A stretch of DNA of 64,000 nucleotides from Diadema setosum (lineage: Eukaryota > Echinodermata > Echinoidea > Diadematoida > Diadematidae). Every line of letters begins with the position of its first letter. Position 1 is the stretch's first letter. Where the stretch lies: assembly GCA_033980235.1 (NCBI GenBank), contig CM067070.1:9378195-9442194 (forward strand), read 5' to 3'. This document shows, piece by piece, positions 12,746-63,808 of the stretch. Made by a program: the position numbers and the translations under genes. The notes beneath the pieces were generated by a model that saw nothing but the letters and a program-made list of their open reading frames with translations, was not told where the DNA came from and ran no database searches.

Positions 12746-14414
12746 GAACCCTAAGAACACAATCTTTGATGTCAAACGGCTGATTGGTCGCCGATTCACA
12801 GACGAGAGTGTACAAGCTGATATGAAGCACTGGCCATTCAAGGTGATCAACCAAGAGGGCAAACCTAAGCTAGAGGTGGAATACAAGGGGGAAAAGAAGA
12901 TTCTCGCCCCAGTGGAAGTCAGCTCCATGGTTTTGACCAAGATGAAAGAGACGGCCGAGGCATATATAGGTCAGAAAGTCACTGATGCTGTCATCACTGT
13001 TCCTGCTTACTTCAATGATGCTCAGCGACAGGCCACCAAAGATGCAGGTGTCATTGCAGGGCTGAATGTTCTCCGCATCATCAATGAACCGACGGCAGCT
13101 GCCCTGGCGTACGGACTAGATAAGAGGGTTGAAGGTGAACAGCGTGTCCTGATCTTTGACCTTGGTGGAGGCACATTTGATGTGTCCATCTTGTCGATCG
13201 ATGATGATATCTTCGAAGTCATGTCAACTGCTGGAGACACCCATCTTGGTGGTGAGGACTTTAACAACAGGCTGGTCAGCTATCTTTCTCAGGAATTCAA
13301 GCGTAAGCACAAGAAGGACCTCACAAACAACCCACAAGCCATCCAACGTCTCCACACAGTCGCTGAGCGTGCAAAAAGAATCCTCTCAGCTGGTCCCCAT
13401 GCCAGCATTGAGGAAGACTCTCTCTTCGAAGGAGTTGATTTCTACACAAGAATCACCAGAGCTCGCTTTGAAGGCCTCTGCTATGATCTCTTTAGAAAGT
13501 GCCTTGACCCAGTTGAGAGGGCTATTACTGATGCAAATATCAACAAAAGAGACATCGACACTGTTGTGCTGGTTGGAGGATCAACCCGTATTCCCAAGGT
13601 CCGGAGGCTTCTACAGGAGTTTCTAAATGGCAAGGACCTTAGCAAGTCCATCCATCCAGATGAAGCTGTGGCTTACGGTGCAGCAATCCAGGCAGCTATC
13701 TTGTCTGGAGATCGAAGCGCAGAAATCCAGGATGTTGTCCTCGTTGACGTAACCTCACTTTCTCTTGGAACCGAGGTGGATGGTGGTGAAATGTCAACCA
13801 TAATCAAGAGAAATACGACCATTCCTGTTACGGCAACAGAGACCTACTCCACAGCTTCAGACAACCAAACAAGCATGGACATTGAAGTGTACGAGGGAGA
13901 GAGGGCGCTTACTAAATACAACAACCTACTTGGAGAGTTCGAGCTGACAGGAATTCCTCCAGCACCAAGAGGTGTGCCGAAGATCAAAGTGACCTTTGAT
14001 ATTGACGCCAATGGCATCATGAATGTAACAGCTAAAGATCAGAGCACAGGTCGTAGCAACAACATCATAATTACGAACAACAGAGACCGTCTTTCCAAGG
14101 AAGAAATTGAACTCATGATCAACGACGCTGAGAAGTTCAGACTTCACGATGACCTACAACGGAAAAGAAATGCTTCCAGAAACAAACTGAAAGACTACGC
14201 GTACAGCGTTAAATCCGCTGTCAACGAAACATCAGCCGAGAGGAAGCTAACCGCTTGTGACAAAGAAAAGGTCACCAAGGCTGTAGAAAAAGTTCTTCAG
14301 TGGTTGGATTCCAACTACAAGGCAACCGAGGAAGAGTTGACTCAGCAGCTTGAGGAGCTTCAGAAAACCTGCTCACCAATCATGATCAAAATAAATGTTG
14401 CGAGGGGACGATAA
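12746..14414 (+). CDS. HSP70 gene A, exon 2 (618-aa protein, no EEVD tail)
   Basis: This exon carries the rest of an HSP70 ATP-dependent chaperone. The acceptor CTACAG (12740-12745) precedes GAACCC, which completes Met63. Visible are the catalytic lysine in [19 protein letters not shown], the phosphate-2 motif [13 protein letters not shown] and [16 protein letters not shown], then the linker, the beta substrate-binding domain ([20 protein letters not shown]) and the helical lid. The linker region reads [10 protein letters not shown] where nearly all HSP70s have [10 protein letters not shown]. The protein ends at [14 protein letters not shown], about 30-35 residues short of usual cytosolic HSP70. 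The GGMP-rich tail and the EEVD that binds TPR co-chaperones are missing. It is probably cytosolic or nuclear. The frame is intact, so it is probably a functional gene; expression is unknown. Confidence 0.95.
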
Positions 14415-15204
14415 AATGACTACCATCGAGTAGGGCTACAGCAAGGACTAGCTGATTAAGTGTCTTACTGATGTGGAAGAGATGGAGTAAATTGGCCATA
14501 AACCATTAACTAAGAATAAGCATTTCAATGTATACTCTTGTTTAATATCCACTGCATTATGTATGAGGGAGTTTAGCTGCTGCCATGCGTAACCTTTCTC
14601 AATGCTTTTTATTTTCATATTGCGGATACTTTTGATAAAGATATTGCATGAACAACGTGCAGTTTTGCGGGTAAGGAGGAGACTTATTGTCACCCTGCGT
14701 AAGGACTGGTTATGAAAGGGTACAAACTCAAATTCAATTAGTTTTCTGAGATGTTTGCTTGAACGCCGACCTTCAAAGTTTTACAACAACTTGTACGAAA
14801 ACAGAAATCGAGAGGAGAGTTAGAATGAAATGCTCAAACCAAATAGCGAATAAGACCATTTTAATTTTCATAGCTTTTATGTCCAGACAGTTTAACTACT
14901 TCAAGACTTTGCTGATTATCTTTCAAGGTTTTTCAGACAGCAAGAATTGTCAGGATTTAGATCCTGTTTAATTGCTTAGATTATCCACTTTACTGCTCTA
15001 TATGAAGTAGAATATGACTAGCAGGTTGATAATTTCTACTTTTTAAATGAATTAATTTTTCTTGCATAAAAAAAATAAGAATCTCCCATCATTCTACAGC
15101 TTTGTATCAATATGTACGCAGGAATGAAAGTACATAATTGCGATTACAAAGGCTAAATAGTCAAAAAGATATGAGACTATTCAGAACTGAATACTTCACA
15201 AATA
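14415..15204 (+). other. 3' UTR and downstream flank of gene A
   Basis: This matches 37601-38382 downstream of gene B at roughly 85-90% by eye, with short indels. The AATAAA present after gene B (37676-37681) is not conserved here; a weaker AATAAG at 14512-14517 may serve. The match shows that both genes were copied with their 3' flanks. Confidence 0.7.
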
Positions 15205-21156: not shown

Positions 21157-21160
21157 TTAA

Positions 21161-21719
21161 AGGACAAGTTCACCTTCATTAACATAAGGATTGAGAGAAT
21201 GCAGCAATATTAGTAGAACACATCAGTGAAAGTTTGAGGAAAATTGGACAATCGATGTAAAAGTTATGAATTTTTAAAACTTTGTGTTGGACCCGCTGGA
21301 TGAGCAGACTACGAAAGGCTCGTGATGTCATACGAGTACAACAGTATAAAGAAAATGTAAAGAAAATTCAACATATTTTCACTTTGCTTTTTTTCGCATA
21401 ATAAAAGAGCACTTGACTTGCCTCTTTTTAAAGGCAATGGGAATAATATTACCCAGAACATATGTCAGTAACGAGTCAAGGGAATGTGTACTTTTTTCAA
21501 AAGATGAAATTTTGTGAAATTCTCTTTATATTTTCCTTATATTGTTGTACGCATGTGACATCATACACTGCAGTAGTCTTCTCATCCAGCGGTGACTGCA
21601 CAAAAACTTCAAAAATTCATAACTTTTGCATCGATTGTCCGATTTTCGTCAAACTGTCAATGATGTGTTCTACTAATATTGCTACATCTCTCTCATGTTA
21701 ACGAAGGTAAACTTGTCCT
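21161..21719. mobile_element. TTAA-flanked MITE, family 3 (copy 1)
   Basis: TTAA at 21157-21160 and 21720-21723 flanks ends AGGACAAGTTCACCTTCATT and the complement AGGACAAGTTTACCTTCGTT. The inverted repeat runs about 130 bp inwards. The paralogous position at 1395 has TTAC and no element, an empty site. Relatives are at 57066-57577 and 60033-60603. Confidence 0.85.
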
Positions 21720-21956
21720 TTAAAGAGGAAATCCATTGCGCCATAAAGAAGTGGAGGCAAAGTCACTCTCCTGATGAAAGAAATCATCAGATTTTGCCAA
21801 TTCCAGGTATATAGTGTTTAGTTGAAATACTAGTACAATGTGATAGGGATTTATTAAGTTGTTGCAAGTCAAGGCAATCTTCCTGCAAGCTTTGTTGTTG
21901 TTAAAGGAACAAAAGAAGGATACAATAAATGAGAGAAACGGTCTATTGCTATGACA

Positions 21957-25841: not shown

Positions 25842-26029
25842 ATGGCACCAGGAAAAGCACCAGCCATTGGTATTGACTTGGGAACGACCTACTCGTGTGT
25901 GGGTGTCTTCCAGTACGGCAAAGTCGAGATCATTCCCAACGACCAGGGAAACCGAACCACACCGAGCTACGTCGCCTTCACCGATACGGAGAGGCTCATC
26001 GGCGATGCCGCCAAGAATCAAGTTGCTAT
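25842..26029 (+). CDS. HSP70 gene B, exon 1
   Basis: This exon encodes residues 1-62 plus two bases. It carries IDLGTTYS (11-18), DQGNRTTPS and [13 protein letters not shown], with P in IIPNDQGN where A and C have A. ATG 25842 gives [14 protein letters not shown], the same start as gene C. The donor is GTAAGT at 26030 and the exon joins 35932 in phase 2. The 9902-bp intron is the longest of the three. The 25 bases before the ATG (AACTGTTGAGAAAAAA) resemble those before gene A, but the conserved promoter block lies 3.6 kb upstream. Confidence 0.95.
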
Positions 26030-35931: not shown

Positions 35932-37600
35932 GAACCCCAAGAACACAATCTTTGACGCTAAGCGATTGATAGGTCGGCGATTCACAGACGAGAATGTGCA
36001 AGCCGACATGAAGCACTGGCCATTCAAAGTTATCAACCGAGTAGAAAAGCCGGCAATACAGATTGAATACAAGGGAGAGAAAAAGACATTCGCCCCGGAG
36101 GAGGTCAGCTCCATGGTTCTCACCAAGATGAAGGAGACAGCTGAGGCATATCTTGGTCAAAAAGTCACCGATGCTGTCATCACTGTTCCCGCCTACTTTA
36201 ATGATGCTCAGCGACAGGCTACCAAAGATGCAGGTGTCATTGCAGGGCTGAATGTCCTTCGCATCATCAATGAACCGACGGCAGCTGCCCTGGCATACGG
36301 ACTAGATAGGAAGGTGCAAGGTGAGCAACGTGTCCTGATCTTTGACCTTGGTGGAGGTACATTTGATGTGTCCATCCTGTCGATCGATGAGGGTATCTTC
36401 GAAGTCATGTCAACTGCTGGAAACACCCATCTTGGTGGTGAGGACTTTGACAACAGACTGGTCACCCATCTTTCTCAGGAATTCAAGCGCACACAAAGAA
36501 AGGACCTCACAAAGAACCCAGAAGCTCTCCAACGTCTCCGCACAGTCGCTGAGCGTGCAAAAAGAACCCTCTCAGCTGGTCCCCATGCAAACATTGAGGA
36601 AGACTCTCTCTTCGAAGGAGTTGATTTCTACACAAGAATCACCAGAGCTCGTTTTGAAGACCTCTGCTATGATCTCTTTAGAAAGTGCCTTGACCCAGTT
36701 GAGAGGGCTATTACTGATGCAAATATCAACAAAAGAGACATCGACACTGTTGTGCTGGTTGGAGGATCAACCCGTATTCCCAAGGTCCGGAGGCTTCTAC
36801 AGGAGTTTCTAGATGGCAAGGACCTTAACAAGTCCATCCATCCAGATGAAGCTGTGGCTTACGGTGCAGCAATCCAGGCAGCTATCTTGTCTGGAGATCG
36901 AAGCGCGGAAATTCAAGATGTAGTTCTAGTTGACGTAACCCCACTCTCTCTCGGAATTGAGGTCGAGGGTTTCGAAATGTCAACAATAATCAAAAGAAAT
37001 ACGACAATTCCCACCGTGGCAACTGGGTCCTACACCACGGTTTCTGATAACCAAACTCGCCTGAGGGTTCAAGTCTACGAGGGAGAGAGGGCACACACCA
37101 AGTACAACAACCGACTTGGAGAGTTTATGCTGACAGGGATTCCACCAGCACCAAGAGGTGTAGCAGATATCAAAGTGACCTTTGACATTGATGCCAATGG
37201 CATCATGAATGTGACAGCCAAGGAACAGAGCACAGGTAGCAGCAACAACATCGTGATTATCAACAACAGGGACCGTCTATCCAAGGAAGAAATTGAACTC
37301 ATGATCAACGACGCTGAGGAATTCAGACTTCAGGATGACCTTCACCGGAAAAGAAATGCTTCCAGAAACAAACTGAAAGACTACGCGTACAGCGTTAAAT
37401 CTGCTGTCAACGGAACATTAGCCGAGAGGGAGCTAACCGCTGGTGACAAAGAAAAGGTCACCAAGGCTGCAAAAAAGGTTCTTCAGTGGTTGGATTCCAA
37501 CTACAAGGCAACCGAGGGAGAGTTAACGCAGCAGCTTGAGGAGCTTCAGAAAACCTGCTCACCAATCATGATCAAAATAAATATTGCGAGGGGACGATAG
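35932..37600 (+). CDS. HSP70 gene B, exon 2 (618-aa protein, no EEVD tail)
   Basis: Same length and layout as gene A exon 2: [48 protein letters not shown], then the canonical [10 protein letters not shown], the beta substrate domain ([20 protein letters not shown]) and the lid, ending at [14 protein letters not shown]. The GGMP/EEVD tail is absent, so HOP- or CHIP-type TPR partners should not bind through EEVD. The usual [13 protein letters not shown] reads [16 protein letters not shown] identity to gene A is very high over 36580-36905 and at the 3' end but drops to about 75-80% by eye across the start of the substrate-binding domain (36915-37160). Frame intact; probably functional, expression unknown. 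Confidence 0.95.
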
Positions 37601-38622
37601 AATGACTACCGTCGAGTAGGACTACAGCAAGGACTACCTGATTAATTGTCTAACTGATGTGGAAGAGATGGAGTAAATAAACATTTCAATACATACTCTT
37701 GTTTAGTAGCCACTGCATAATAATGAGTGAGTTTAGTGCTGCCATGCGTAACCTTTCTCAATGCTTTTTATTTTCATATTGCGGATACTTGTGGTAAAGG
37801 TATTGCATGAAGAACGTACAGTTTTGCGGGTAAGGAGGGGACTTAGTGTCACCCATAGTAAGGACTAGTTATGCAAGGGTACAAATTCAAATTCAATTAG
37901 TTTTCTGAAATGTTTGCTTGGACGCAGAACTTAAAATCTTCCAGCAATTTGCACGAAAAGAGGAATAGAGAGGAGAGTTGAAATGAAATGCTCGATGCTA
38001 TTTTTACAGCTTTTATGTCCAGAGAGATTAACTACTTCAAGACTTTTAGAAAATCCCTTTATTTACAACATGCTGATTATCTTTCAAGATTTTCCAGCCA
38101 GCAAAAATTATCAGGATATATCAGATCCTGTTTAATTGCTTAGATTATCCACTTTACTGCACTAAATGAGGTATGACTAGCTGGTTGATGATTTCTGCTC
38201 TTTTTAAATGAATTCATTTTCTTGCATGACACGCAATAAAAATCTTTCATCATTGTAGAACTTAACAATTAGACATGTATCAGATATGCACGCAGGAATG
38301 AAAATGGATAATTGCTATTACAAACTACGGGTAAATAGTCAACACAGATAAGAGAATATTCTAGACTGAATACTTCACAAATGGATCCAAAAGCTTTCTT
38401 AGGCAATATCGGCTTATCATTCCGGTTACAAGATGTACCAAAGAAACTGACATTCATCTAATACACATAATCTCGTTAATCTTGCAGAGCCCTTCCGTTG
38501 TTTAACGTTTTTGAATATATCATATTTACTGAATTTGAGTGTAGGGAATGACGGTATATTATTACGGAACCTTGTTATAAAATAGGCCTCATGGATAAAG
38601 TCCTTTTGATTTCAGAACCATT
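37601..38622 (+). other. 3' UTR and downstream flank of gene B
   Basis: An AATAAA polyadenylation signal lies at 37676-37681, 76 bp after the stop. The flank matches 14415-15204 plus 17456-17700 after gene A. The site of A's mariner-like insertion corresponds to about 38382 here and is empty. Confidence 0.75.
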
Positions 38623-46712: not shown

Positions 46713-47104
46713 TACTCAATTTGTTCTCCGTGGTCTATATTTCCTTACACCGGATTTTTTATTGGGACCTATGACTTTAACAAGCCTGCTTTTATGTTGG
46801 CATCGTACTTTGCCAAATTATAGCCATCAATGGGTGGCTACTGCTGTAACTTGAACGTTTCGTTTATTTTCATTATCGAGATAAATGTGAACAATCAAGT
46901 GAACGTTTCAACCAAATTATTTGTGCTCCTTTTGTGTTTCGTATAAATTGTAATGATTTCTTATGCTTTTTCTAGAGAAATATGAAAATATATTGAAACG
47001 AAATGAAATGAAAGAATGTTCACACTGCAATGTTTACGTCACCACACACACATAAACACATACACGCACAACCACACACACACACACACACCCACACACA
47101 TATA
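46713..47104. other. No gene; CA microsatellite before the LTR element
   Basis: (CA)n at 47040-47100 borders the retrotransposon insertion point. Confidence 0.7.
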
Positions 47105-48719
47105 TGTCACGAGTGGAGTGACAGACGCTCTCCTCCACTGAGGTCAATTTGCATGGAATTTGTAAATAAGCACTTAAGTATGTAAATTGATGCAAACTGT
47201 TTAACATTTCAATAGAAGAAATTCCAGACCGCTCTCGGTAGAGCCACGGTAGTGCTATGTGTGGCAAGGAGCGGCAGGATGACATCAGGCCGTGGAGGGG
47301 ACATCACGCTGTGGTGTTGTCTCCGTGACACAGTGTATGTGAATGGCCACTCGGTAACGGTGACAGGGTCCGCCACCCCAGTCAATATTAACTAGAGATA
47401 CCCACAGATAGTGGTAAGTGCATTAATTCTGAAATGTTTATGTATTCAATTGGCATAATTCGTTTGTGTAACGGATATCCGAATTGAGAGTGAATTGTGA
47501 TAAAGGTTTCAGTTAATATCACAGGGCGGTGAGTTGGCTCAGTCGGTAGCGCGTCTGCCTCACGATCACGCGGCCCGGGTTCGAACCCGAGTCTTGACTG
47601 AGCAATGTTGTGTGTAAACATACCGTCCCCTCTAGCAAGAGGCAAAACACTCTGTCCCTCGAATAGGACATAAAATGGAGGTCTCGTGTATGAGACAGTC
47701 ACAGCTCATGCACGTAAAAGATCCCGCTTCATTCATTCATCGCAAAGAGCAGGGTGTCTAACCCGGTGAAGTGGTCCCGCAACTCACATCCAACTGGACC
47801 CCATGGAAGACCAGCTTAGTGTAGCTGAATATGGGCTATCCAGCCATCTTCACAGATGGGAAATGAACAACAACAACAACAACAACAACAATATGTGATG
47901 TAGATATAATGGTTATTGTTAAATGCTACAGTTAATATGTGATATAGAATATAGAATGGTTGTTATTTATGGTTGCATATGCTGATATACATTTGTATAT
48001 TCATAATGAGGTAATTTGAACGTTGATTAGGATAATATGAAAGTGCTCAAGTGCTCTGGCTGTAAGTGATCTGAATATTTTAATATTTGAAGGGTTTCCG
48101 GGTTTCCCGAAGGGTCAAGGACCCATTGGCACTGCAAGAGGCAGGTTCATAAAGGCGTCGACTGTCGACCAGCTCCGAGGCAGTATGGGAGCATAGACTG
48201 TCGACTGAACTTCATTCCTGGATGCTGAGGAGACATCGCGAAGACGTCCGTCGGGAGAGCGACCACGCGAACGGCAATCGCGAAGAGTTGGTACGACAGA
48301 CCACGCGACAGTCCATACCAGCACCAGCGTAACGGGGCCCCGTCGTCGACCGACATCGTCATCGACCTGCATTGTCATCGTCATACGTCGTCATAAGCCA
48401 TCGTCACACAACGTACATCCGTGACAGCCATTCGAGGTGAAATGAATCCAATTTGAGTTAAACATAATAAAGTCCTAAGAGCCAGAAAGCCAGTGAGCAG
48501 GAATGATTTATGTTCCGTTTTTTCTCTTTTTATAATTTGCTGTAAAACCAATAGTCACAGTTATAGACAATTAAAATATTTGAGTTAAATGAATGCACAT
48601 TGTTTCCTCCGTTTCTTCTTGTATGAGTTACAGCCTGCCAACAGTTCTCAGAGGTTATGAAAATTTCTTTGTTCTGTTTATTTCCATATAAGGATGGAAA
48701 TCGGGCAAATTCTGTGACA
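47105..48719 (+). repeat. 5' LTR (contains a SINE)
   Basis: 1615 bp, TGTCAC to GTGACA. Longer than the 3' LTR because a SINE is inserted (47520-47889) and because it keeps about 200 bp (roughly 48266-48465) that the 3' LTR lost. AATAAA at 48466-48471 may be the polyadenylation signal. Confidence 0.93.
47520..47889 (+). mobile_element. tRNA-derived SINE, full-length copy
   Basis: Target duplication AATAT at 47515-47519 and 47890-47894. The tRNA-like head has A box TGGCTCAGTCGG (47535-47546) and B box GGTTCGAACCC (47578-47588), the internal Pol III promoter. A body of about 250 bp and a (CAA)n tail follow. The 3' LTR lacks it, so it landed after the retrotransposon. Older copies: 26148-26445 and 32560-32790. 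Confidence 0.92.
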
Positions 48720-48721
48720 AT

Positions 48722-48738
48722 TGGGGGCTTGTCCGGGA
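48722..48738 (+). other. Primer-binding site, tRNA-Pro type
   Basis: TGGGGGCTTGTCCGGGA starts two bases after the 5' LTR. It matches the complement of the usual tRNA-Pro 3' end (TGGGGGCTCGTCCGGGA) with one mismatch. Confidence 0.8.
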
Positions 48739-48820
48739 GAGAGAACTTGGCAGGGATTATTCATACAAGAATTTGAGACGTGATTCATGTAACCTCATGT
48801 TGTGTGTATAAGATATCACA

Positions 48821-49410
48821 ATGGAATTAGAGAAGTACGTACAGTTAGGTAAAGATTGTGGACTGCAAGGTCCAGAACTAGTGGAGTTTGCCCGCACTGA
48901 AAGAGACAAGTATCTCGAAGAAAAGAGACGAGATCAAAAGTTAGAAAGAGATGAATGACAGAGGGAAGAAATAATCAAGCAAAAGAGGATTGAGTTAGAG
49001 ATAGCTCAGTATAGGAGTGTCAATGTGAAGGGAACAAATAGTGTAAGGAGTAGCTTACCAAGCTTGCCGGTGTTTCGCGCTGACTCTGACGATTTGGACG
49101 CTTATCTGTTGCGCTTTGAGAGATATGCAAAACAAAGTCAGTGGCCAGAAGAATGCTGGGCTCCTGCATTGGGGAACCTTTTGACCGGGCGCGCTTTGGA
49201 GGTTTATTCTCTCTTACCGGAAAATGAAGCTGATGACTATGAGAGTCTGAAAGATACACTCTTGCGGCAGTTTGCGCTAACTGAAGAAGGCTTTCGCAAA
49301 CGTTTTCGAGAGGCGCGGCAGAAAATGGGCAAATCATTTGGGCAATTTGCAACGCGCATAACCGGATATGCTACTAGATGGGTAGAGATGTCGGGTACAA
49401 GTAAGTCCTA
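48821..49410 (+). pseudogene. gag, N-terminal part
   Basis: The frame opens at ATG 48821 (MELEKYVQLG), has a TGA at 48956-48958, and continues with FRADSDDLDAYLLRFERYAK, then LLTGRALEVYSLLP and DTLLRQFALTEEGFRKRFRE. This is the capsid-like region of Ty3/gypsy Gag (helical, with the DLDAYLxRFE and GRALEVYxxLP patterns). The reading breaks at the insertion beginning about 49411. Gag would form the particle that packages element RNA. This copy cannot make it because of the stop and the insertions. Confidence 0.85.
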
Positions 49411-49413
49411 TAA

Positions 49414-49846
49414 GGCTGCTTTCACATAGAAGTATTCGGTATTCGCTATTCGCTATTTGCTATTCGAGCACCGAATACACCATCACCCGCACCGTCAACT
49501 CACCATCCCATGTAGTGAGGATTTCTTCCTCCTGCATCGCAGCAAATCTTATTAACAATTTCTAAACTGCATCAGAATGTCGGTCTACATGCTTATATTT
49601 GCTAACGGGCAAATCCAGACCAAAAGTGTCATTATTTCATAAACGAGAGACGGTATACGCTGCAAGAAAATCGAACAAGCTCAATTCCCACTTTGCTATA
49701 CTTTTCGCAGGTATTCGGTACTTTCGAATAGTGCCCTCTTATGTGAACCGGTGTGAGGAAATCCTATCGTTCGATTCAAGCTATTCGCGTGCCCTCGAAA
49801 AACGAGCCCGAATACCCGAATAGTATACTTCTATGTGTGAGCAGCC
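49414..49846. mobile_element. Harbinger-like MITE inside gag
   Basis: Inverted ends GGCTGCTTTCACATAGAAGT and the complement GGCTGCTCACACATAGAAGT, 433 bp. The flanks TAA (left) and TGA (right) would fit a 3-bp target duplication with one change, as for PIF/Harbinger elements. The inside is rich in TATTCG repeats and has no transposase. Confidence 0.65.
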
Positions 49847-49850
49847 TGAA

Positions 49851-51737
49851 CAGTCCAAGCAAGTACCCTGTGAGGGATAAACCTGAAATACCCTCTCAGG
49901 GCTATTCAGCGGCTCAACGAAGCGTTGCGATCGTTATCTCTATTCTCATTGCCGGTCGTTCCGATTTATGACTAGAAATTCTGCGGATTTTGCTGGCTCG
50001 TGCGAGCGCTGCACGCTCGCCATGAGCTGGGTGGCCCTGTACACCCACATGCAGGCCGGACAAGTCGCAGCGTCACATACCAGCCGGGGAGATACCACAC
50101 ACAGTCTTCAAATCCACCAAGTATTGTAAAGTAACTCGCGCTAAGATGGATTGCAACAATTTGCACAAATCCAAACTAATTTAAACTAGGCCTACACTAA
50201 GTACACGTCGTTGCAGGATGATATAAACACAAAAAATAAACAAAATACACAGTTCCCCTACACTCATGTACGCATACAAGCACAAGCACCCACAGCAAAC
50301 ACAAGAGTGTCAACAACATCAAAAGCAAAAACAAAACGAAAACTGGCATCATTCAGAAAGTGTTGAATTCGAGTATTTTATAAGTTATGTTATCAAGATA
50401 CAGTTGTGACTTGTTTTTTGAGAAGAACGTATAACTATTTTTTTTTTCTTTTCAAATCATTTCATGATGTATCAATTATTAAATCTGTATTTAATAGTCA
50501 CATCTTGTATCATCTGCAGTGTGGATATTAGTATATCATACGCATCTATAATATAAGAGTAAGAACATCTTCTATAGACGATCGAACGCAATTTCAAAAC
50601 CCAGTTTTGGCAACTGAATGGATTTCGTTCTCCTACCTGCCCGTGGCCGGTACACTTGCCGAACTGTAAAGATGATGGTATCACACATCTCCTCAACTGG
50701 AACTACAGCTGTATTTTCAGTTATGATTCTCTCACAGTCCCAAGTAGATATAACACAAAACGCCATCTTAGTCTTCATAAAATGTTATCGATGCAGTCAT
50801 GGCAGCGTATATTCCATAATTCAGGGAGGTGGAAAGAGAATTGAATAATTATGCCTAGTTAGTGCACAGGGATAGACTGTACAATGCTAATGTAAGGTCT
50901 CAGTGGCAGCTGACTGGTATCGAGGAAACCCCACTAAAAAAACAACATCACTCCCCCAGCCCACCGAAGAATCCTGGCTGGTATGTGTACGTAACTTTCC
51001 ACAGCAGACACTCTGCCGAGCGAGACTGCCTTTGCAATGTCACAGCACTTTCCCAACGACGCAGGGACGTGATCAGTTCACTTTTGATTTTTCTGATAAA
51101 CTGCGTTGATACCATCTTTTAATGTCCCCTGAAGTTCATACTATAAAGATGTAAGCATCGATTTCATTCTACATAATTCATTTCCAAAATTTACAGTTGT
51201 GATTACATGTACATTACATCAAATGTGAGATGAGTGAGGTTCCTTCGTACAGCAGCGAACAGCGGCAACCAAGCAAGCAACGCGAGCCAGAGAGCAATAC
51301 GATAACCATTCCACGTGGGCTAACAGCACGGAGGCACGCGGTGTGTGCGCGTTTTTCTCTGTTTCAGTAGCGATAGCCTGACAAAATTCAGACCGGATTG
51401 AATGAGACTAAGTGGACAAAATTTTCGAACATGTTGTGCTATGACAGAGAGCGTGTGAATTTTGCTCCCCGCGGATTATCCTGCAAAAGGGTCTATGAAA
51501 GGAAAGACTAATAATCTTCACTCTGAGGGAAAAGGAGCGCAATCCGCGGGGAGCAAAATATACCGTGTGTGTTTAAACGCACGCATGTCGAAGCGGTTTT
51601 GTCGGTTCCCATAGACTTTACACGTGAAGGCGATTCGCTTGGCACTGAGCCAGGTTCGGCGAGCTCGCGCGGTTCTCCCGTTTTATCCTCTATAGGGTAT
51701 TTCGGCGTTATCCTTCACAGGGTAGTTGCCTGGACTG
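49851..51737. mobile_element. TIR DNA element inside gag, unclassified
   Basis: About 50 bp of inverted ends: CAGTCCAAGCAAGTACCCTG against the complement CAGTCCAGGCAACTACCCTG, going on to GAAATACCCT. TGAA, or CTGAA, flanks both ends, giving a 4-5-bp target duplication. The 1.9-kb interior has no recognised transposase. It contains an 18-bp inverted repeat TTTTGCTCCCCGCGGATT at 51455-51472 with its complement at 51540-51557, probably a further nested piece. The superfamily is not determined. Confidence 0.65.
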
Positions 51738-52113
51738 CTGAAGGGCTACTAGAGCTAACGGTGCGTGAACAGCTGCTCGAATGTTGTGATCGTGGATTAT
51801 CTGTTTTCATTCGTGAAAGAAACCCACGATCGGTGAAGGAGATGGCAGATATCGCAGATCGGTATCGGGACGCACACGGGCATGGCGGCTCAGGTAAACG
51901 CGCACGCGACGATAATAAGTCTCGTAACCAGGGCAACGAAGCAAGCCAAGCAAAGAAAGGGGGCGCTACGTCACGTGACAACCAGGGTTGCTTTGTTTGT
52001 GGTAAGCAAGGACATTTTGCTTCGAAGTGTCCAGACCGTAAAACTGACAAGTCGAAAGTAACTAGCAAGCAGTATGTGCCAAAGTCAAAACAGACGGGTC
52101 AACATGTGTGGTA
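51738..52113 (+). pseudogene. gag, C-terminal part with zinc knuckle
   Basis: After the insertions the frame resumes with LLELTVREQLLECCDRGLSV, then ERNPRSVKEMADIADRY, a basic linker and the nucleocapsid CCHC knuckle CFVCGKQGHFASKC (C-x2-C-x4-H-x4-C), ending at a TAG near 52113. The upstream part of this open frame (51569-51737) belongs to the inserted element, not to gag. The knuckle would bind element RNA. The protease frame follows in the -1 register. Confidence 0.85.
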
Positions 52114-52800
52114 GGAGTATGCCCTACTCATGATGCTTACGAGAGAGGGAATGTTAGTGGCACACCTTCTTTTAAACTGATGTGTGGTCACGAGTTACCC
52201 CTTCTTAGCGGTGGGTGTAACGTAGGCACAGACATGCCGACATGTGAAGGTATGTTGAATGGTAAAAGAGTGAAGGTGCTGAGAGACACTGGTTGCAACA
52301 CCGTAGTGGTGAAACGTCAACTGATAGAGGAATCACAGCTGACTGGTGAGATTCAAACTTGCGTGCTCATAGATGGTACTGTGAGAAAAGTGCCACTAGC
52401 AAAAGTTGAAATCGATTCACCATACTTTGTTGGAACAACACATGCTTTATGTATGACGAATCCTATCTACGATCTAATCATAGGTAATGTTAGTGGTGCT
52501 AGGCAGCCTGGCGACGAGGACATCGGATGGAGCGGAGAGGATGCTAGGGAGAAGCCGTCAGCTGAGGAGATGACGACCTCCGGTTCAGAGGCAGAGTCCG
52601 CGGAAGCAGAGTCTTCGAAAGGGACAGCGCAGAACGGCATCACAACGACCTCCGACAGTCGTGATCGTCCCCACACTGACGAGAGTGTGAAGCAGTTACC
52701 AACACCCCTACCTACAACCAACGAAAGTGCAGCAGTAGAGACAAGAGGCATGGGGAAATCGAAGGAACGGCCGTGGAAGAGACTAGGATCAGCAGACTAG
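52108..52800 (+). pseudogene. Retropepsin-like protease region
   Basis: The core is GKRVKVLRDTGCNTVVVKRQ followed by VLIDGTVRKVPLAKVEID and YDLIIGNVSG. This is the aspartic protease fold of Ty3/gypsy elements (LRDTGxxTVVV, then the ILGN-like LIIGN). DTGC replaces the common DTGA. An acidic, Ser/Thr-rich linker of about 100 residues follows and ends at TAG 52798-52800. Beyond that stop the same frame continues into integrase, so the stop looks like decay. It would cleave Gag-Pol. Confidence 0.8.
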
Positions 52801-53222
52801 CCGACGATCACTGCAACCAGGGAGGAGATGATCAGAGAGCAGGCACGCGATGCCACACTGGAGAAACTTCGGAAGTTGGCGGGGAAAGGTGAGGCTAAGG
52901 CTGTAGGGAAAGGAAGTGAGGTCACATATTTTTGTCGTGACAATCTTCTCTTCCGTGAATACAGGTCTCCCTACGTCGAGAGAGGAAAGATATTCACGCA
53001 GCTAGTGGTGCCCCAGCTGTATCGCAGTGAAGTACTCCGACTAGCTCACGACTCCCCTTTGGCAGGTCATTTGCAGACAAAGAAGACGGCTGACCGGATT
53101 CTTGCCCACTTCTATTGGCCAGGAATTCAAGCCGATGTCGAGCGTTACTGTGCATCATGCGATTCATGTCAACGCACTACGCCAAAGGGTAAGATAGGGA
53201 AAGTACCCCTGACCATCCCCCT
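52801..53222 (+). pseudogene. Integrase N-terminal zinc-binding domain
   Basis: Visible are VPQLYRSEVLRLAHDSPLAG, then HLQTKKTADRILAHFYWPGI and YCASCDSCQ. This is the H-H-C-C domain of retroelement integrases (HDxPxAGH then CxxC), with the FYWPG landmark. It is in the same frame as the protease and directly follows it, with no RT in between. A one-base frameshift near 53215-53225 separates it from the catalytic core. Confidence 0.88.
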
Positions 53223-54218
53223 TTGATTGATGCATGTTTCCGTAGAGTGGCGGTCGATTTGATCGGACCACTTGAACCGATCACTGAAAGAGGGAATCGA
53301 TACATCCTGACGATAATCGATCTTGCAACTAGATACCCAGAGGCGGTAGCGCTACCACGAATCGAAGCAGAACGGGTAGCAGAGGCGTTAGTTGAAGTAT
53401 TCTCGAGGTTAGGCATTCCTAATGAGATACTCTCTGATAACGGCACTCAATTCGTTTCAGGTGTGATGAAAGAAGCAGCTCAACTCCTGGGAGTGAAGCA
53501 ATTTCACACCACACCATACCACCCGATGGCGAACGGCGCCTGCGAGAGATTCAACGGCACGTTGAAACAGATGCGGAGGAGGATGTGCCAGGAGCGACAT
53601 GGCGACTGGGACCGCTTCCTGCCAGCTCTTCTCTTCGCATATCGAGAGGTACCTCACGAAAGCCTTGGCTTTTCTCCTTTCGAACTCATGTACGGCCGAG
53701 TGGTGAGAGGACCCATGACAGTACTGAAAGAGCTGTGGACTAAGGAGATCCCTAAGGAGGAAACGAAGACTACGTACCAGTACGTCATCGATCTCCAAAA
53801 CCGACTCGAAAGGACGTGTGAACTCGCCAAAGAGGAGCAGTCCAAAGCATCAAGGAAGTCCAAGAAACACTTCGACGTGAAGACGAAGGAGAGACGCTTC
53901 GAGTGCGGCGACAAAGTGCTACTCCTGTTACCAACGACGAGGAATAAACTGCAAATGCAATGGCGAGGTCCAATCGTGCAGCGAATCGCCAGAGACGATT
54001 ACCGACTGCTTGTGAATGGTAAGGAAAGGACCTACCACGCCAATCTCATGAAGCGGTACATTGGGAGAGAAGACGAGAAAGTCAACGATGTCGAGAGCGA
54101 AAACCAGGGACAACTGGAGGCGAACTACGTCAGTGTCGTGGACGGCGAGGTAGATGATGACGGATCGGTGCCCATCTCATTTCCTCCATCGAAGCGTCGG
54201 AAAGCGTGCATGACGTGA
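53223..54218 (+). pseudogene. Integrase catalytic core and C-terminal domain
   Basis: 331 codons open. The catalytic triad D-D-x35-E is present: D12 in VAVDLIGPL, D72 in LSDNGTQF and E108 in GACERFNG. TTPYHPMANG, YREVPHESLGFSPFELMYGR and a GPY/F-like module (LQMQWRGPIVQRIARDDYRL, then YHANLMKRY) follow. No chromodomain is seen. This domain inserts element cDNA into the genome. The core itself looks undamaged, but it is cut off from its start by the frameshift. Confidence 0.92.
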
Positions 54219-54219
54219 A

Positions 54220-54640
54220 GTGCAACGACGAGCTATAGATGAGGAGAAGATGAGGGAGGTAAAGACTCTCCTGCTGGAGCTCTCGGACGTCATGAACGAT
54301 GTCCCGGGACGGACCGACATCATCGAGCACGCCATCGAAAACTTCTTCTCGAAACGCTTCTCGAAAACTGCTAAAACGCGAGCGCGTGTACCTAATCGCT
54401 GAGCGCGAGTGTCTAGCTCTTGCGTGGGCGGTCAAAAAATTCTCGTACTTTTTGTATGGCCGAGCATTCCAGCTGCAAACTGACCACTACCCGCTTGCTC
54501 ATCTAACACACGCGCGAATGCAAAACCCAAGAGTCATGCGCTGGGCGCTTGCACTGCAGGCATACCAATATCGTGTACAGGTAATCAAGGGCTCAGAAGA
54601 TGTTGGGGCTGATTACCTCAGCAGATGCCATACTGAGTAG
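54220..54640 (+). pseudogene. RT remnant and RNase H C-terminus
   Basis: 54235-54340 reads VKTLLLELSDVMNDVPGRTD and then IIEHAIE, the lead-in to a Ty3/gypsy reverse transcriptase. At about 54340-54380 it jumps, in another frame, to RERVYLIAERECLALAWAVK and later LQTDHYPLAHL, RWALALQAYQYRVQVIKGSE and ADYLSR, the RNase H end. The whole RT catalytic core (YxDD block included) and the first part of RNase H are gone. The junction lies in a CTTCTCGAAA repeat. The order integrase, then RT, is opposite to normal Ty3/gypsy. Confidence 0.88.
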
Positions 54641-55406
54641 AAATAGAGGTGTAAACAGCCCATGCTATCTCTATCATATGTGAGTTAATCACAACGTAAT
54701 TTTGTAATGAATTAATTGTTATTGCTATATACATTGTATGCTAGGAGGTATATTGGAAAGCTATAGTATTACACACATAATGTATGCTGAGTATGAGGTA
54801 GGATAGGCAGTTGACTCATACATCTCTACGGACTGCTCTGAATCAGACACCCCGGTAAATACCGTGCATAAGAAGGTTTTGCACATTACATTTTATTTTG
54901 TAGCAACAGCTAATGCACATAATATGCGATTAGCACAGATATCATAACATTCTCCAATGTTATACTGGCCAACAAAGAGAGTCTGTTGAAATGATGCCGA
55001 TAGTGTCAATTTTGTATTGTGCGGTGCAAAAGGGTAATTGTATTATTGAATTGTGGCTGGTATAATAATGCAAAAGAGTGTTAAAAGAGATATGATGAAG
55101 TTTATATGTTATCCAATTGACTGAGTAAATCAGATTGTATAGTATACTGTGGAGTTTGTTGGTTTGATAGAAAACACATACAAACTGTCTCCTTGGACAG
55201 CAGCCGATATTTGGAACAGTAGTCTGTAATGTATCACGTATCACGACGGGTGAAACAGTGAATTATTTCAAGGAGTATAATGTTTGATTTAGAAGAGTAA
55301 TGGTGAGAAAGTACTTACCTGCTACAGACATTTGATTTTATTTAGAGAGATGAGGTTATTGTTTCAGAGCGACTGTCATCTTAAATGGGGGGGGGGGGGG
55401 GTTATT
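54641..55406. other. Non-coding 3' region of the retrotransposon, with polypurine tract
   Basis: No envelope-like frame. A G run (55387-55401) followed by TTATT lies just before the 3' LTR and is the candidate polypurine primer. Confidence 0.7.
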
Positions 55407-56444
55407 TGTCACGAGTGGAGTGACAGATGCTCTCCTCCACTGAGGTCAATTTGCATGGAATTTGTAAATAAACACTTAAGTATGTAAATTGATGCAAACT
55501 GTTTAACATTTCAATAGAAGAAATTCCAGACCGCTCTCGGTAGAGCCACGGTAGTGCTGTGTGTGGCAAGGAGCGGCAGGATGACATCAGGCCGTGAAGG
55601 GGACATCACGCTGCGGTGCTGTATCCGTGACACAGTGTATGTGAATGGCCACTCGGTAACGGTGACAGGGGCCGCCACCCCAGTCAATATTAACTAGAGA
55701 TACCCACAGATAGTGGTAAGTGCATTAATTCTGAAATGTTTATGTATTCAATTGGAATAATTCGTTTGTGTAACGGATATCCGAATTAAGAGTGAATTGT
55801 AATAAAGGTTTCAGTTAATATGTGATGTAGATATAATGGTTATTGTTAAATGCTACAGTTAATATGTGATATAGAATATAGAATGGTTGTTATTTATGGT
55901 TGCATGAGCTGAGATACATTTGTATATTTATAATGAGGTAATTTGAACGTTGATTAGGATAATATGAAAGTGCTCAAGTGCTCTGGCTGTAAGTGATCTG
56001 AATATTTTAATATTTGAAGGGTTTCCGGGTTTCCCGAAGGGTCAAGGACCCATTGGCACTGCAAGAGGCAGGTTCATAAAGGCGTCGACTGTCGACCAGC
56101 TCCGAGGGAGTATGGGAGCATAGACTGTCGACTGAACTTCATTCCTGGATGCTGAGGAGACATCGCGAAGACGTCCGTTGGGAGAGCGACCAATAAAGTC
56201 CTAAGAGCCAGAAAGTCACTGAGCAGGAATAATTCATGTTCCGTTTTTCTCTTTTTATAATTTGCTGTAAAACCAATAGTCACAGTTATAGACAATTAAA
56301 ATATTTGAGTTAAATGAATGCACATTGTTTCCTCCGTTTCGTCTTGTATGAGTTACAGCCTGCCAACAGTTCTCAGAGGTTATGAAAATTTCTTTGTTCC
56401 GTTTATTTCCATATAAGGATGGAAATCGGGCAAATTCTGTGACA
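55407..56444 (+). repeat. 3' LTR
   Basis: 1038 bp, TGTCAC to GTGACA. It lacks the SINE and about 200 bp present at 48266-48465. AATAAA at 56192-56197. Confidence 0.93.
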
Positions 56445-56454
56445 ATATCCCTAT

Positions 56455-58155: not shown

Positions 58156-58343
58156 ATGGCACCAGGAAAAGCACCAGCTATTGGAATCGACTTGGGAACG
58201 ACATACTCGTGTGTGGCTGTCTTCCAGCACGGCAAAGTCGAAATAATTGCCAACGACCAGGGAAACCGGACCACGCCAAGCTACGTCGCCTTCACCCACA
58301 GGGAGCTGCTAGTTGGAGATGCCGCCAAGAACCAACTTGCAAT
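58156..58343 (+). CDS. HSP70 gene C, exon 1
   Basis: This exon encodes residues 1-62 plus two bases: IDLGTTYS (11-18), [15 protein letters not shown], then [15 protein letters not shown]. The usual [10 protein letters not shown] is changed at several positions (D to H, T to R, R to L, I to V), while the length is the same. ATG 58156 gives [14 protein letters not shown]. There is no signal peptide, so the protein begins in the cytosol. Donor GTAAAT at 58344, phase 2, joined to 61999 by a 3655-bp intron. Confidence 0.95.
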
Positions 58344-58500
58344 GTAAATATTATAATCTTTCTGCCGTAGATTGTATAGTTATCGGTTAGAATTGTGTTG
58401 TGTTACCTTTCTCTACTTGTGAAATACTACGAACCAGAACAACTCATGGGCTGAAATAAAAAGCTTTATCTCTAAATTACTGGACATGTAGAGGTATTAA

Positions 58501-60028
58501 AGGGATCATACAGTTTTGGTGGAGACCTAATTTCAGGTTTCTAACATTTTTTGGTGAGATAATGAGAAACCTCTTATGAAATATGAAAGAGCATGTAATT
58601 CTATGAGGAATTCAACGTTTATTTCATCAAAATTGGTTTTGAAATGGCTGAGATATCCAAAAAAAAAAAAAAAGAGCGATTCTAATAAAGTGTGGGACCC
58701 ACACTTTATTACCATCGCTTTGTTTTGAATTGAATTGAATTGAATGACTGAAACTGCACTGGTCTTGCACTCGAGACACAGTGAACAGTTCCTGCACGTT
58801 TATTTTAATATTTCACTTGACATCAAAATACATCCAAAGAAGAAGACAAACCAAGCAAGATACAAAATATGTCATACGTCTGGACATGAACAGAAAGTGT
58901 GTCAGCATTCATAATGTAGATAAGACTGTTCTCTATAACTTGTGAAATATGATGGAACCGCAAAAGCAAAGCTTGTAAACGCAGGTTCCATGAAAAAATA
59001 CCGGTGTAAATTTGCTATGCAATCAGTGGAGATAGGACACAAAGTAATAATGACGAAACGATATGAAAGCTAAAATATCAAAGTACAAAGGGAAAAAGAA
59101 ATAAGAGAATAAAAAGAAAAAGTGAAAAAAACAAAACAAAAAACAAGAACCCAAAGAATAAGAACTGAGTGAAAATATGGCATATAGGTACACAAGTATA
59201 TACGTGCACATTATCTATAATCAACTTCATAATGGGTTCAAAATATTGATACAAATACGGATGCAGTGATTATATAACGGGAGCATAATCCAGAAATATA
59301 CATTGAACGAGGATAGTTGAAATATTCTAATCAGACTGATTATATTCATTTATTAACATTAACTTCAATTTTTGTTTAAATGTAAACATACTAAAACAAT
59401 TGATCGGCGGGAAGATCATTCCAGAATTTAGGTCCGGCAAAAACAATTGTTTTTTTGAGCAAGGAGTGTGCGGGTACGTGGAAGGTGAAATGATTCTCTT
59501 TGTCTTGTGGGGTAAGCATGAACGGCATAGTTTTTCTGAAACATATGAGTAAATACGTCAGGCAAGTCGTTGGCTGATAACTGAAACATAAATGTGCCTA
59601 AGTTGTATAAAAACAAGTCAGCAACCTTAAGGAGTCTGTTTTCAAAGAAGAAATCATTCGTGTGACAATAATAATCGGCTAGATTTACTGAACGAATAGC
59701 CCGTTTTTGTAGTTTGAAAATTTTATCAATGTATAATTTGGCACAGTTTCCCCAGGCAAGTATTCCGTAACAGAGGTAGGGTAAAATGAGCGTTGAATAT
59801 AAATTTTTCAAAATATACTTTGGAAAAAAATGTTTTAGCTTATTTAAAATCCCACTTTACTTTGTTTTTGGATGTTTCAGTCATTCCAAACCCGATTTTC
59901 ATCAAACAAACTTTGAATTCCTCTTAAAATGGCATGATATCTATATCATAAGTGTTTTCTTGGTATCTCGCAAAAAAGACGGTTAGTTAAAGCCCAATTC
60001 TCATCTCCACCAATACTGTACTATCCTT
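58501..60028. mobile_element. TTAA MITE, family 2 (copy 2), split by a LINE
   Basis: TTAA at 58497-58500 and 60029-60032. The left part (58501-58726) and the right part (about 59855-60028) together match 9922-10303. The LINE at about 58727-59853 separates them at the GCTTTGTTTTACTTTG position. Confidence 0.8.
58727..59853 (-). pseudogene. CR1/L2-like LINE, 5'-truncated, nested in a MITE
   Basis: The minus-strand frame 59428-59811 reads LYSTLILPYLCYGILAWGNC, then KLQKRAIRSVNLADYY, LLKVADLFLYNLGTFMFQLS and FHLPRTRTLLAQKN. This is the post-RT part of ORF2. The 3' end, at the left, has a short (CAATT)n tail on the minus strand (58727-58745), as in LINEs that end in a microsatellite. Its relative in intron B is 28683-29110. 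No RT core. Confidence 0.82.
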
Positions 60029-60032
60029 TTAA

Positions 60033-60603
60033 AGAGGAATTAACCCCAAAAATAAATTTTAATTGAGTGAATGGAGCAATCATAATAGAATAAATCAGCG
60101 AAAGTGTGAGGAAAATCGGACAATCCGTTCAAAAATTATAAATTTTTGAAGTTTTGGTGACGAGACCGCTTGATGAGCACTACTATACGGATCCTGACAT
60201 CACATATGGACTAGGTACTACATGTATATAAAGAAAATATAAAGAAAATTATATTTTCCTTTCACTTTTCTAGCATAATGATACAGCACTAGACTTACTT
60301 TTTTCAGAAAGCAGGGGGAATGATATTACCCTTGACATACGACAGTAACAATTTCAGGAAATGCATTTTAGCTGAAATGATGTTTTGTGGAATTTTCTTT
60401 GCAATTTCTTTATATCCTAGTGATGTCATGATCTGAAGGGCTCGATCTGATCCAGCGGGCTCGATCCCGTGGGCTCGTCATCAAATTTCAAAAAATTCAT
60501 AACTTTTCAACAGATTGTCCGATTTACCTCAAACTTTCACTGATGTGTTCTATAAATATTGGCGCATTCACTCAATCCACGTGTACATTTTGGGATTGAT
60601 TCC
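60033..60603. mobile_element. TTAA MITE, family 3 relative
   Basis: Shares the TTAA at 60029-60032 with its neighbour; the right flank is TTAT. The ends AGAGGAATTAACCCCAAAA and complement AGGGGAATCAATCCCAAAA are inverted. Inner phrases (AATCGGACAATCCGTTCAAA) match the family-3 copies. Confidence 0.7.
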
Positions 60604-61998
60604 CCTTTATACCCTCTAATCAACGTGCAATTCCATCCCAAACTCCATCGAGCGCTTTAGGGGAATAACGGAATTGTTAAATTGTACAGTCTGAAAAGTA
60701 AGAGTAAAGTATTACAACAACAACAAGAGATAATATTTCAGGCAAAATTGGATGAAAATCAAGAAAGTTGTAAAATGTTGCAGTTTCACTAGCCTCCTGA
60801 ACAGTCAGTATGAATATGAAAATAGTGAATAGATAATGCCGTCTACCTTGCCACACTGCAAAAAGTCCGGTGTGAAATATGAAATACCGAAGTGGTGCTT
60901 AATTTCCGGTTCTGATTTGTCGTGTTGAATTATCACTTCTGGGTGTCACATGAAAATATAATTGTTTTTTTTTTTTAAGACAGGTAATTTGTTATTGTTC
61001 TTCTTCGGTGTTCAACAAGATGAAGAGGAAATTACCGATAAAAGAAGTAGGCCTACTTGATTTTTGAAAAAAAAGTTGTGAACACATTTACAAAACGGTA
61101 ACACCAGTTAGTGTGGGCTCCTCGAAACTAGGCGTATGTGATACCATTGCCGGTAACACCAGAAATATCAAATTAACACCATGTAGTGTCATCGTTGAAT
61201 TAACACCGGCGCAGCATCAAAAACATCACCAGCTACAGTGTCAAATCAACACTAATATTTCTGCGGTGCTTGTTTAAAGGTAATGTATTGTATATACTTT
61301 GACGAATGGGGGTAGTGGGGTAGAATGGGGGCAGAAATGGGTGACAGTTTTTTATAAAACAAGCAAATATGTGTACACAACCCAGGCTTGTATGCATTAA
61401 ATTATGTTTAATGTTTTTGTATTGTTCTGTGTTCATGTATTCTCGATTTTTCATTTCAAGAAATTTTGAATTACAAGGTCCAATCAGCAGTGCACCAAAC
61501 AACTTCTTACAACAATTTAAGGATACTCCTTGTGTTAAATCTATTATTACTGTGTTCATGTTATCATTCTTCTTCTGTAGGAATTAGAACTGAATAGATG
61601 CATTTACATTTGTTTCATCACAATGACGTCGATTGGGGGGGGGGGGGGGGGAGAGACCTAATACTTCCCCTCCAGTAATGTGCCAAAAAGCGATATACGA
61701 ACATTGCTAACACATTTAACTAAAACATGACAAATTGTAGGAAAAAATATGACGTTAAGACATTATTATAGAACATTGAAAATTCGTCCAGATATTTTAC
61801 CCACAGAGTGCACTTGATCGATGAATTTCACTTCTGAAATAAGCTCTCATGGGGGGGGGGGGATGGAATTACTCTACCCACACCTCGATCGTACCCTTTC
61901 CATAGAAGACAATGATGAAGTGTAATTTATGAATGATTTCGATATTTACTGTTTTCTGGAAACGTTAAATCTCATTTCTAATATTGCTTGTTCAATAG
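60604..61998. other. 3' part of intron C; no gene
   Basis: Contains a loose repeat of TAACACCAG/AGTGT words (61098-61260), a second TTAAAGGTAATGTATTGT start at about 61266, and poly-G runs (61636-61650, 61852-61861). Ends in the acceptor TTCAATAG at 61991-61998. Confidence 0.6.
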
Positions 61999-63808
61999 GA
62001 ACTCCAAGAACACAGCTTTTGCTGTCAAGCGACTTATTGGGCGGCAATTCACAGACAAGATTGTTCAAGAGGACATGAAGCACTGGCCGTTTAAGGTAAT
62101 CAACCAAAAAGGCAAACCCGCTGTACAGGTTGAGTACATGGGAGAGAACAAAATCCTCGTCCCGGAGGAAATCAGCTCCATGGTTCTCACGAATATGAAG
62201 GAGACGGCCGAGGCATATCTCGATCAAAAAGTCACTGATGCTGTCATCACCGTTCCCGCCTACTTCAATGATGCTCAGCGACAGGCCACCAAAGATGCTG
62301 GGGAAATTGCAGGGCTGAATGTCCTTCGCATTATCAACGAACCGACAGCTGCTGCCCTGGCTTATGGACTTCATAAGAAGGTACAAGATAGACAGCATGT
62401 CTTGGTGTTTGACCTTGGCGGAGGCACATTTGATGTGTCCATCCTGCTTGTCGATGGTGGTAACTTCAAGGTCCTGGCAACTGCTGGGGACACCCATCTT
62501 GGTGGTGAGGACTTCGACAACAGACTGGTCAACCATCTTGTCGGGGAGTTCCAACGCAAACACAAGAGCGATCTCTCAAACAACCCTCGGGCCCTCCAAC
62601 GTCTCCGCAAAGCTGCTGAGCGTGCAAAGAGGAGTCTGTCAGGTATTTCCCATGCGAGTATCGAAGTAGACTCGCTCTTCGGCGGGATTGACTTCCGCTC
62701 TGAAATCACCAGAGCTCGCTTCGAAACCCTCTGCTCTGATCTATTTAAGAAGTGCCTTGACCCAGTTGAAAGCGCTATCGTTGATGCAAAGATCAACAAG
62801 GAAGACATCAACATTGTTTTGATGGTTGGAGGTTCAACCCGCATTCCCAAGATTCAGAAGCTTCTACGCGAGTACCTGGATGGCAAGGGCCTTAGTAAGT
62901 CCATCAATTCCGATGAGGCTGTGGCCTATGGTGCAGCTGTCCTGGCAGCCATCTTGTCTGATGATCAGAGCAAAGAAATCGAGAATGTCACCCTCCTTGA
63001 TGTAACTCCACTCTCTCTTGGGGTTGAGGTTATTGGTGAAGAAATGTCTATCGTAATCAAAAGAAATACGCAAATTCCCATCAAAGCAGCGCGGAACTAC
63101 ACCACAACTTCAAACAACCAAACGAGGGTGTTATTTCTCGTATATCAGGGAGAGGGAAAGTTCACCCAATATAACAACTTACTCGGAAAGTTTGAGCTGA
63201 ATGGCATTCTTCCAGCTCCAAGAGGTGTGCCACAAATCAAAGTGACCTTTGACATTGACGAAAGTGGCATTTTAACTGTGACAGCATTGGATCAAAGTAC
63301 AGGTTGCAACAAAAAAATCACCATCACCAACTGCATCGACTGCCTCTCTGAGGAACAAATTGAAACCATGATCAACGATACAGAGAAGCACAAAGCAGAG
63401 GATGAGCTCCTACGAAAAAGATATGTATGCAAAAACCAACTAGAGAACTACGTCTACAGGGTCACATCCGCTCTCAAGGAACCTGCTGCTCAGAGGAACC
63501 TAACTCCTGAAGACAAACACAGGATTATTGAGGCTGTAGAAGATGTCATTCAGTGGTTAGACTTGGATTCTAAGACAACGAGTGAAGAGTACATTCACCA
63601 GCTGACAGAGCTTAAGAACATCTGCTCGCCAATCCTAAGCAAGATGTATGCTGAAAATGAACAGCAAAATACTGCCCCTCCAGAAGGTCCAGTGCGGCCT
63701 CAGTCTGAAGAGAGAGACAATACTGAAAGTGACAATACTGTGCTAATCGTAGTCTGCATTGGCTTGCTCCTACTATTACTGAATGTTCTTTACATGCGGC
63801 TGTGGTAG
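61999..63808 (+). CDS. HSP70 gene C, exon 2: predicted tail-anchored HSP70 (665 aa)
   Basis: It completes a 665-residue HSP70. ATPase landmarks: [31 protein letters not shown] and [13 protein letters not shown]. Then come the linker region [10 protein letters not shown], the beta substrate domain ([20 protein letters not shown]) and the lid up to [15 protein letters not shown]. In place of a GGMP/EEVD tail there is a polar Pro/Glu/Asp-rich spacer (about 615-642) and a hydrophobic segment [18 protein letters not shown] (residues 644-661, DNA 63740-63793), then MRLW and TAG. With no signal peptide and a single C-terminal membrane segment, it has the layout of a tail-anchored protein with the chaperone facing the cytosol. 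ER or another secretory membrane is likely from the Leu-rich segment (inference). The frame is intact. It is more diverged than A and B are from each other. Confidence 0.93.

Follow-up and report, generated by a model that had tools for sequence, protein, structure and literature searches.

Can an HSP70 carry its own membrane anchor? The question is raised by a 64-kb stretch of DNA on contig CM067070.1 (64,000 nucleotides, hereafter the window), in which three tandem HSP70 genes, designated A, B and C, all lie on the + strand. An earlier interpretation made from the letters alone (the sequence-only reading) held that gene C encodes a whole HSP70 in which the EEVD tail is replaced by an acidic spacer and a hydrophobic run, and that its product would be held on the cytosolic face of a membrane. 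The analysis reported here suggests that gene C probably encodes a tail-anchored HSP70. The parts of gene C to which the argument refers are as follows.

Gene C exon 1: 58156-58343, + strand, start codon to the phase-2 donor GT; residues 1-62 and two bases of codon 63.
Gene C intron: 58344-61998, + strand, single, GT...AG, at the same position as in A and B.
Gene C exon 2: 61999-63808, + strand, the remaining HSP70 and the C-terminal tail; stop codon TAG at 63806-63808.
Acidic spacer Y613-T643: 63647-63739, + strand, 31 residues, net charge -6.
Hydrophobic segment V644-M662, the putative tail anchor: 63740-63796, + strand, 19 residues, then R-L-W-stop.

A hydrophobic segment at the C terminus of gene C

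The reading frame of gene C exon 2 runs unbroken from 61999 through to its stop and joins that of exon 1 in phase, giving a product of 665 amino acids. The sequence-only reading had described both the open frame and the placing of the tail in the same exon as the lid, and both descriptions were borne out. Hydropathy was scored with Kyte-Doolittle and Hessa-type scale values that we assume to be correct. V644-M662 was the best 19-residue Kyte-Doolittle window of gene C, with a mean of 2.92, and its summed Hessa-type biological-scale energy was -3.6. Within residues 1-605 the hydropathy maximum was 1.54 (at residue 196), and in A and B the value never rose above 1.31. The segment had been described as an uninterrupted run of 18 to 20 hydrophobic residues; its length of 19 agrees with this, but a single asparagine (N658) breaks the run and leaves an unbroken part of 14 residues, V644-L657. 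Only RLW follows M662, in keeping with the claim that the run ends three or four residues before the stop.

Judged by hydropathy alone, the N terminus of gene C has no hydrophobic signal. The product thus has the sequence properties of a tail-anchored protein, namely, a single hydrophobic segment (again by hydropathy) near the C terminus and no N-terminal signal. A lone C-terminal hydrophobic segment in a protein without a signal is inserted posttranslationally, and the N-terminal part stays in the cytosol. Because gene C fits this definition, we infer a cytosol-facing orientation for the putative anchor. The earlier proposal of a tail-anchored, cytosol-facing HSP70 therefore agrees with the sequence definition in its first part, and its second part follows by this reasoning. 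The spacer that would separate the lid from the membrane is probably disordered.

The HSP70 core

Pfam analysis placed PF00012 over residues 8-613 of gene C (774.9 bits against a cut-off of 20.6), and the ATPase domain, linker, substrate-binding domain and lid are all present, which upholds the claim that the HSP70 is whole. Alignment with human HSPA1A revealed 386 identical residues among 609 aligned (63%), with 72% identity in the ATPase domain and 62% in the substrate-binding domain. For comparison of functional sites, we used lists of ATPase, groove, latch and J-protein/linker positions in HSPA1A which, with their numbering, we take to be right. All 24 listed ATPase-site positions are identical in C, and four of the five listed lid latch residues are kept.

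Additionally, the ratio of nonsynonymous to synonymous substitution rates (dN/dS) was 0.296 for C and A and 0.316 for C and B (pairwise averages over 611 codons, the tail lying outside them), and 0.39 to 0.40 in the lid. The core of gene C therefore appears to be under constraint on average, since dN/dS is about 0.3.

The tail within the HSP70 array

Each of the three genes consists of a short exon 1, one intron and a long exon 2. The exons are split at the same site in all three, between NQ(V/L)AM and N, in phase 2 and with GT-AG borders. Genes A and B are laid out as follows.

Gene A: exons 5339-5526 and 12746-14414, + strand, 618-amino-acid HSP70 ending ...KINVARGR, without tail anchor and without EEVD.
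Gene B: exons 25842-26029 and 35932-37600, + strand, 618-amino-acid HSP70 ending ...KINIARGR, without tail anchor and without EEVD.

Over residues 1-611, A and B share 88% identity, and C is 69% identical to A and 68% identical to B. In exon 1, C is 87% identical to B and 84% identical to A (tblastn). The products of A and B end in ...CSPIMIKIN(V/I)ARGR, and both genes stop inside the exon homologous to exon 2 of C. Gene C ends in ...LYMRLW and thus lacks the EEVD of canonical cytosolic HSP70/HSC70. The replacement of EEVD by an acidic spacer and a hydrophobic run, as the sequence-only reading had it, thus holds as a layout but not as a loss special to C. A and B also are without EEVD, so the loss is a feature of the whole array and unconnected with the anchor. 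In the +1 frame right after the stops, A reads MTTIE-stop (14416-14433) and B reads MTTVE-stop (37602-37619); these short stretches may have been left behind by a former TIEEVD terminus.

DNA similarity of gene C to A ends at 63653 and to B at 63645 (residues 615 and 612), where the tail starts, and the tail is therefore unique to C within the window. A tblastn search of the window with the tail gave no match outside its own place (E values of at least 3.1). DNA matches to the tail within the window were short and chance-like; the best (E of 0.005) was to a simple repeat after the stop, and the best within the coding tail had an E of 0.019 over 28 bases. Pfam analysis of the tail alone returned three matches, all under their cut-offs, and nothing in the window passed the Rfam gathering threshold. 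No match to exon 2, to the three-gene alignment or to the tail was found in viral contigs. The bacterial and archaeal genomes scanned yielded 79 DnaK-type loci, of which 44 had a long open reading frame with a stop and the other 35 were excluded; none of the 44 had a segment with a hydropathy of at least 1.6 in its last 60 residues, which serves as a distant base rate only.

In order to estimate how often such a segment arises by chance, every frame outside the HSP70 exons that ran from stop to stop over 23 codons or more was scored, frames of a retroelement in the window (described below) being counted. Seven of 1,700 matched the hydropathy of the segment in their last 30 residues, 14 matched it anywhere, and 20 reached 2.5 in the last 30. 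Without the retroelement, the first figure became 7 of 1,427. Several of these seven frames are visibly of low complexity, with runs of Ile or Phe. Among 100,000 random 57-codon tails (window base composition, stop codons swapped for Gln), 3 matched the segment and 23 reached 2.5. Random read-through would rarely resemble the tail of gene C, though this is possible. An origin of the leucine run in a simple repeat was ruled out, because the eight Leu codons in V644-M662 are diverse and cover all six codon types. A relic EEVD in the spacer, which might have marked a lost stop, also was sought; the best candidate, RPQSEERD, was equaled in 1,869 of 20,000 shuffles and is not significant.

Other features of the window were recorded. 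Introns and an LTR (long terminal repeat) retroelement mark the DNA as eukaryotic. At 2318-2536 lie the degraded remains of a fourth HSP70 exon 1, interrupted by stop codons and an insertion (42% identity by tblastn). The gene C intron contains dispersed repeats at 58497-60578 that occur elsewhere in the window, for example, at 9918-10307 and 21157-21723. Between genes B and C, at 47101-56446, lies the LTR retrotransposon, which probably is young. Its direct repeats (47101-48721 versus 55403-56446, in three pieces) are 97 to 98% identical, and its frames include gag (PF03732) and integrase (PF00665) over the Pfam cut-offs and an aspartyl-protease-like match (PF13650) slightly under its cut-off.

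Weighing the alternatives

Several findings weigh against a working, membrane-anchored HSP70. The lid and the 14-residue linker of gene C are each 36% identical to those of HSPA1A. Of the listed groove positions, 8 of 17 have the human residue, as do 5 of 10 listed J-protein/linker positions. All three genes share the groove drift, since A keeps 7 and B keeps 6 of the 17. At four of the J-protein/linker positions (I212V, D214G, E218K and D390N), the human residue is retained in A but replaced in C; these sequence comparisons include hints of an altered J-protein choice in gene C. No AATAAA or ATTAAA was present in the 192 nucleotides from the stop to the window end, and neither a TATA motif nor a heat-shock element (with up to one mismatch) was present in the 600 bp 5' of the gene C start. 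Because neither gene A nor gene B matches the tail in DNA or in protein, the tail itself is, by sequence comparison, a gain or replacement.

The predicted structure counts partly with these points and partly for the anchored reading. AlphaFold2 was given exon 2 and an alignment of 23 sequences, namely, the three genes and 20 DnaKs from prokaryotes. The model contained the HSP70 core at middling confidence, with a mean predicted local distance difference test score (pLDDT) of 73.4 and a predicted template modeling score of 0.52. The last lid helix ends at exon 2 residue 556 (protein residue 619), and pLDDT is below 50 over exon 2 residues 555-583 (protein residues 618-646). A helix was predicted in the tail at protein residues 643-664, with pLDDT block means of 54, 55 and 44 and values below 50 at its start, so the model supports it weakly. 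The best 10 of 459 matches in the PDB (E of 0.001 or less) were Hsp70-family chains, two of them Chlamydomonas central-pair entries, with template modeling (TM) scores of 0.45 to 0.66 and mostly large root mean square deviations (8.8 to 27.4). For the top match (TM score of 0.66, deviation of 21.9), the domain arrangement was not reproduced. Given such scores and deviations, the domain folds are confirmed and their arrangement is not.

The alternative that survives best, although we consider it unlikely, is that the tail is a recent C-terminal extension from noncoding DNA on a diverging tandem copy, and that it acts as a hydrophobic degron, so that the product would be degraded soon after synthesis, or marks a pseudogene in the making, rather than being a working anchor. 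The end of similarity to A and B at the start of the tail would fit this, as would the drift at groove, lid and J-protein-contact positions and the fact that all three genes are without EEVD and have ends unlike canonical HSP70. Copies do decay in the array, as the degraded exon 1 indicates, and 7 of the 1,700 other frames are equally hydrophobic at their end. The available part of PMC11502859 describes nonstop extensions of the hydrophobic kind that destabilize proteins. Set against this are a core that is constrained and free of frameshifts or stops, the coherent tail-anchor layout of spacer, 19-residue segment and 3-residue end, and the lack of a significant EEVD relic in the spacer, which would be the sign of a lost stop.

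It is improbable, in our estimate, that the tail acts intramolecularly, with the Leu-rich segment and its nearby Arg folding into the protein's own cleft or that of a neighbor, so that autoinhibition or oligomers would result and the protein would be mostly soluble. The segment does resemble Hsp70 substrate peptides (the accessible text of PMC9866221 includes DnaK bound to NRLLLTG), a 31-residue spacer would be of sufficient length, and a conserved helical extension rich in leucine, at the C terminus of some truncated Hsp70s of plants, has been proposed to make protein contacts (PMC10687569, as far as its available text goes). However, 19 residues at a mean of 2.92 are of membrane-spanning length and would exceed what the cleft needs.

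Equally slight is the chance that alternative splicing or an assembly error hides a different mature C terminus and leaves the tail untranslated: the stop lies 192 nucleotides from the window end, so that a further exon could lie beyond it, but the tail shares exon and frame with the conserved lid, the similarity to A and B continues with no frameshift up to about residue 612 to 615, A and B likewise terminate in the homologous exon, and no frame yields a GGMP-rich or EEVD end between 63560 and the window end at 64000, which rules out to that point a canonical tail hidden by an assembly frameshift.

A model for the proposed membrane-anchored HSP70

If gene C does encode a tail-anchored HSP70, its target membrane is probably the endoplasmic reticulum (ER), because the segment is strongly hydrophobic and only one basic residue follows it. 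A single Arg after the segment mildly disfavors mitochondria. In the available part of PMC9866221, strong hydrophobicity favors the GET/TRC40 route to the ER. After translation, the segment would be caught by a tail-anchor pathway (Hsp70/SGTA/TRC40-GET, or EMC) and then inserted, most likely in the ER, with the chaperone on the cytosolic face. The spacer may serve as a tether long enough for the lid and both domains to move. The product would be a locally concentrated Hsp70 that reaches the membrane without a receptor. Because EEVD is missing, it would not be expected to use tetratricopeptide repeat (TPR) co-chaperones (HOP, CHIP, SGTA/Sgt2 or Tom70-type receptors), and the covalent anchor would take over the localizing role that EEVD-TPR docking has in soluble Hsp70. 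That its clients would be nascent or retro-translocated proteins, as was also suggested, is speculation.

We tentatively advance, at somewhat less than an even chance, a broader scenario: a eukaryotic, probably animal, lineage evolved a self-anchored HSP70, EEVD being lost first and one tandem copy then gaining an anchor that replaced TPR docking. The result would be a permanent membrane-surface Hsp70 that is itself a client of an Hsp70-dependent tail-anchor pathway.

Relation to known HSP70 systems

Gene C resembles cytosolic HSP70/HSC70 (human HSPA1A and HSPA8) in its whole domain order, in the listed ATPase residues and in its identity to HSPA1A, and it differs in having the acidic spacer and hydrophobic tail where they have a GGMP/EEVD end. 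The plant Hsp70T proteins (type IV T1) recall the array, being clustered cytosolic-type Hsp70s without a conserved C-terminal motif, and in one group the C terminus is extended by a helix rich in leucine, as it might be in C; unlike the anchor proposed for C, that extension is proposed to bind proteins (PMC10687569, available text). HSPA13 (Stch) is a noncanonical HSP70 without EEVD that is microsome associated, according to the accessible part of PMC12692333. HSPA13 is without a substrate-binding domain, whereas C has that domain, a lid and a C-terminal hydrophobic segment.

Other HSP70s have been located at membranes. At the chloroplast surface, some of the cytosolic Hsp70 Com70 is associated with the cytosolic side of an organelle, a placement like that proposed for C (PMC4064156, in part); in the available text of PMC6589150, Com70 is named only among the references. 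In fish cells, plasma membrane HSP70 takes part in viral entry and is membrane located as C would be (PMC10269764), and hsp70 at the surface of ascidian follicle cells offers a deuterostome case (PMC9265791). Unlike the proposed location of C, both are at the cell surface or plasma membrane, and the available portions of these two papers mention no encoded anchor.

Membrane-anchored J-domain proteins of the DNAJB12/14 class put chaperone activity on the cytosolic face of the ER. There the co-chaperone is anchored and soluble Hsp70 is recruited, whereas with gene C the Hsp70 itself would be anchored. None of the matches listed from the open-licence literature showed an HSP70 that encodes its own tail anchor, and exact wordings for a transmembrane HSP70 had no match there; within that literature, this agrees with the claim that no well-described animal HSP70 has this design. 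The main texts of PMC10269764, PMC8423806, PMC12692333, PMC5872545, PMC10687569 and PMC6079275, as available, nowhere use the term "transmembrane."

Cytosolic Hsp70s are brought to membranes by anchored J-proteins or by the docking of EEVD to TPR receptors. If the reading of gene C as a tail-anchored HSP70 is true, the gene would provide a simple natural test of whether local Hsp70 concentration by itself suffices for tasks at the membrane surface such as translocation, tail-anchor insertion or ER-associated degradation, and it would show a tandem HSP70 array diversifying mainly by change of the C terminus.
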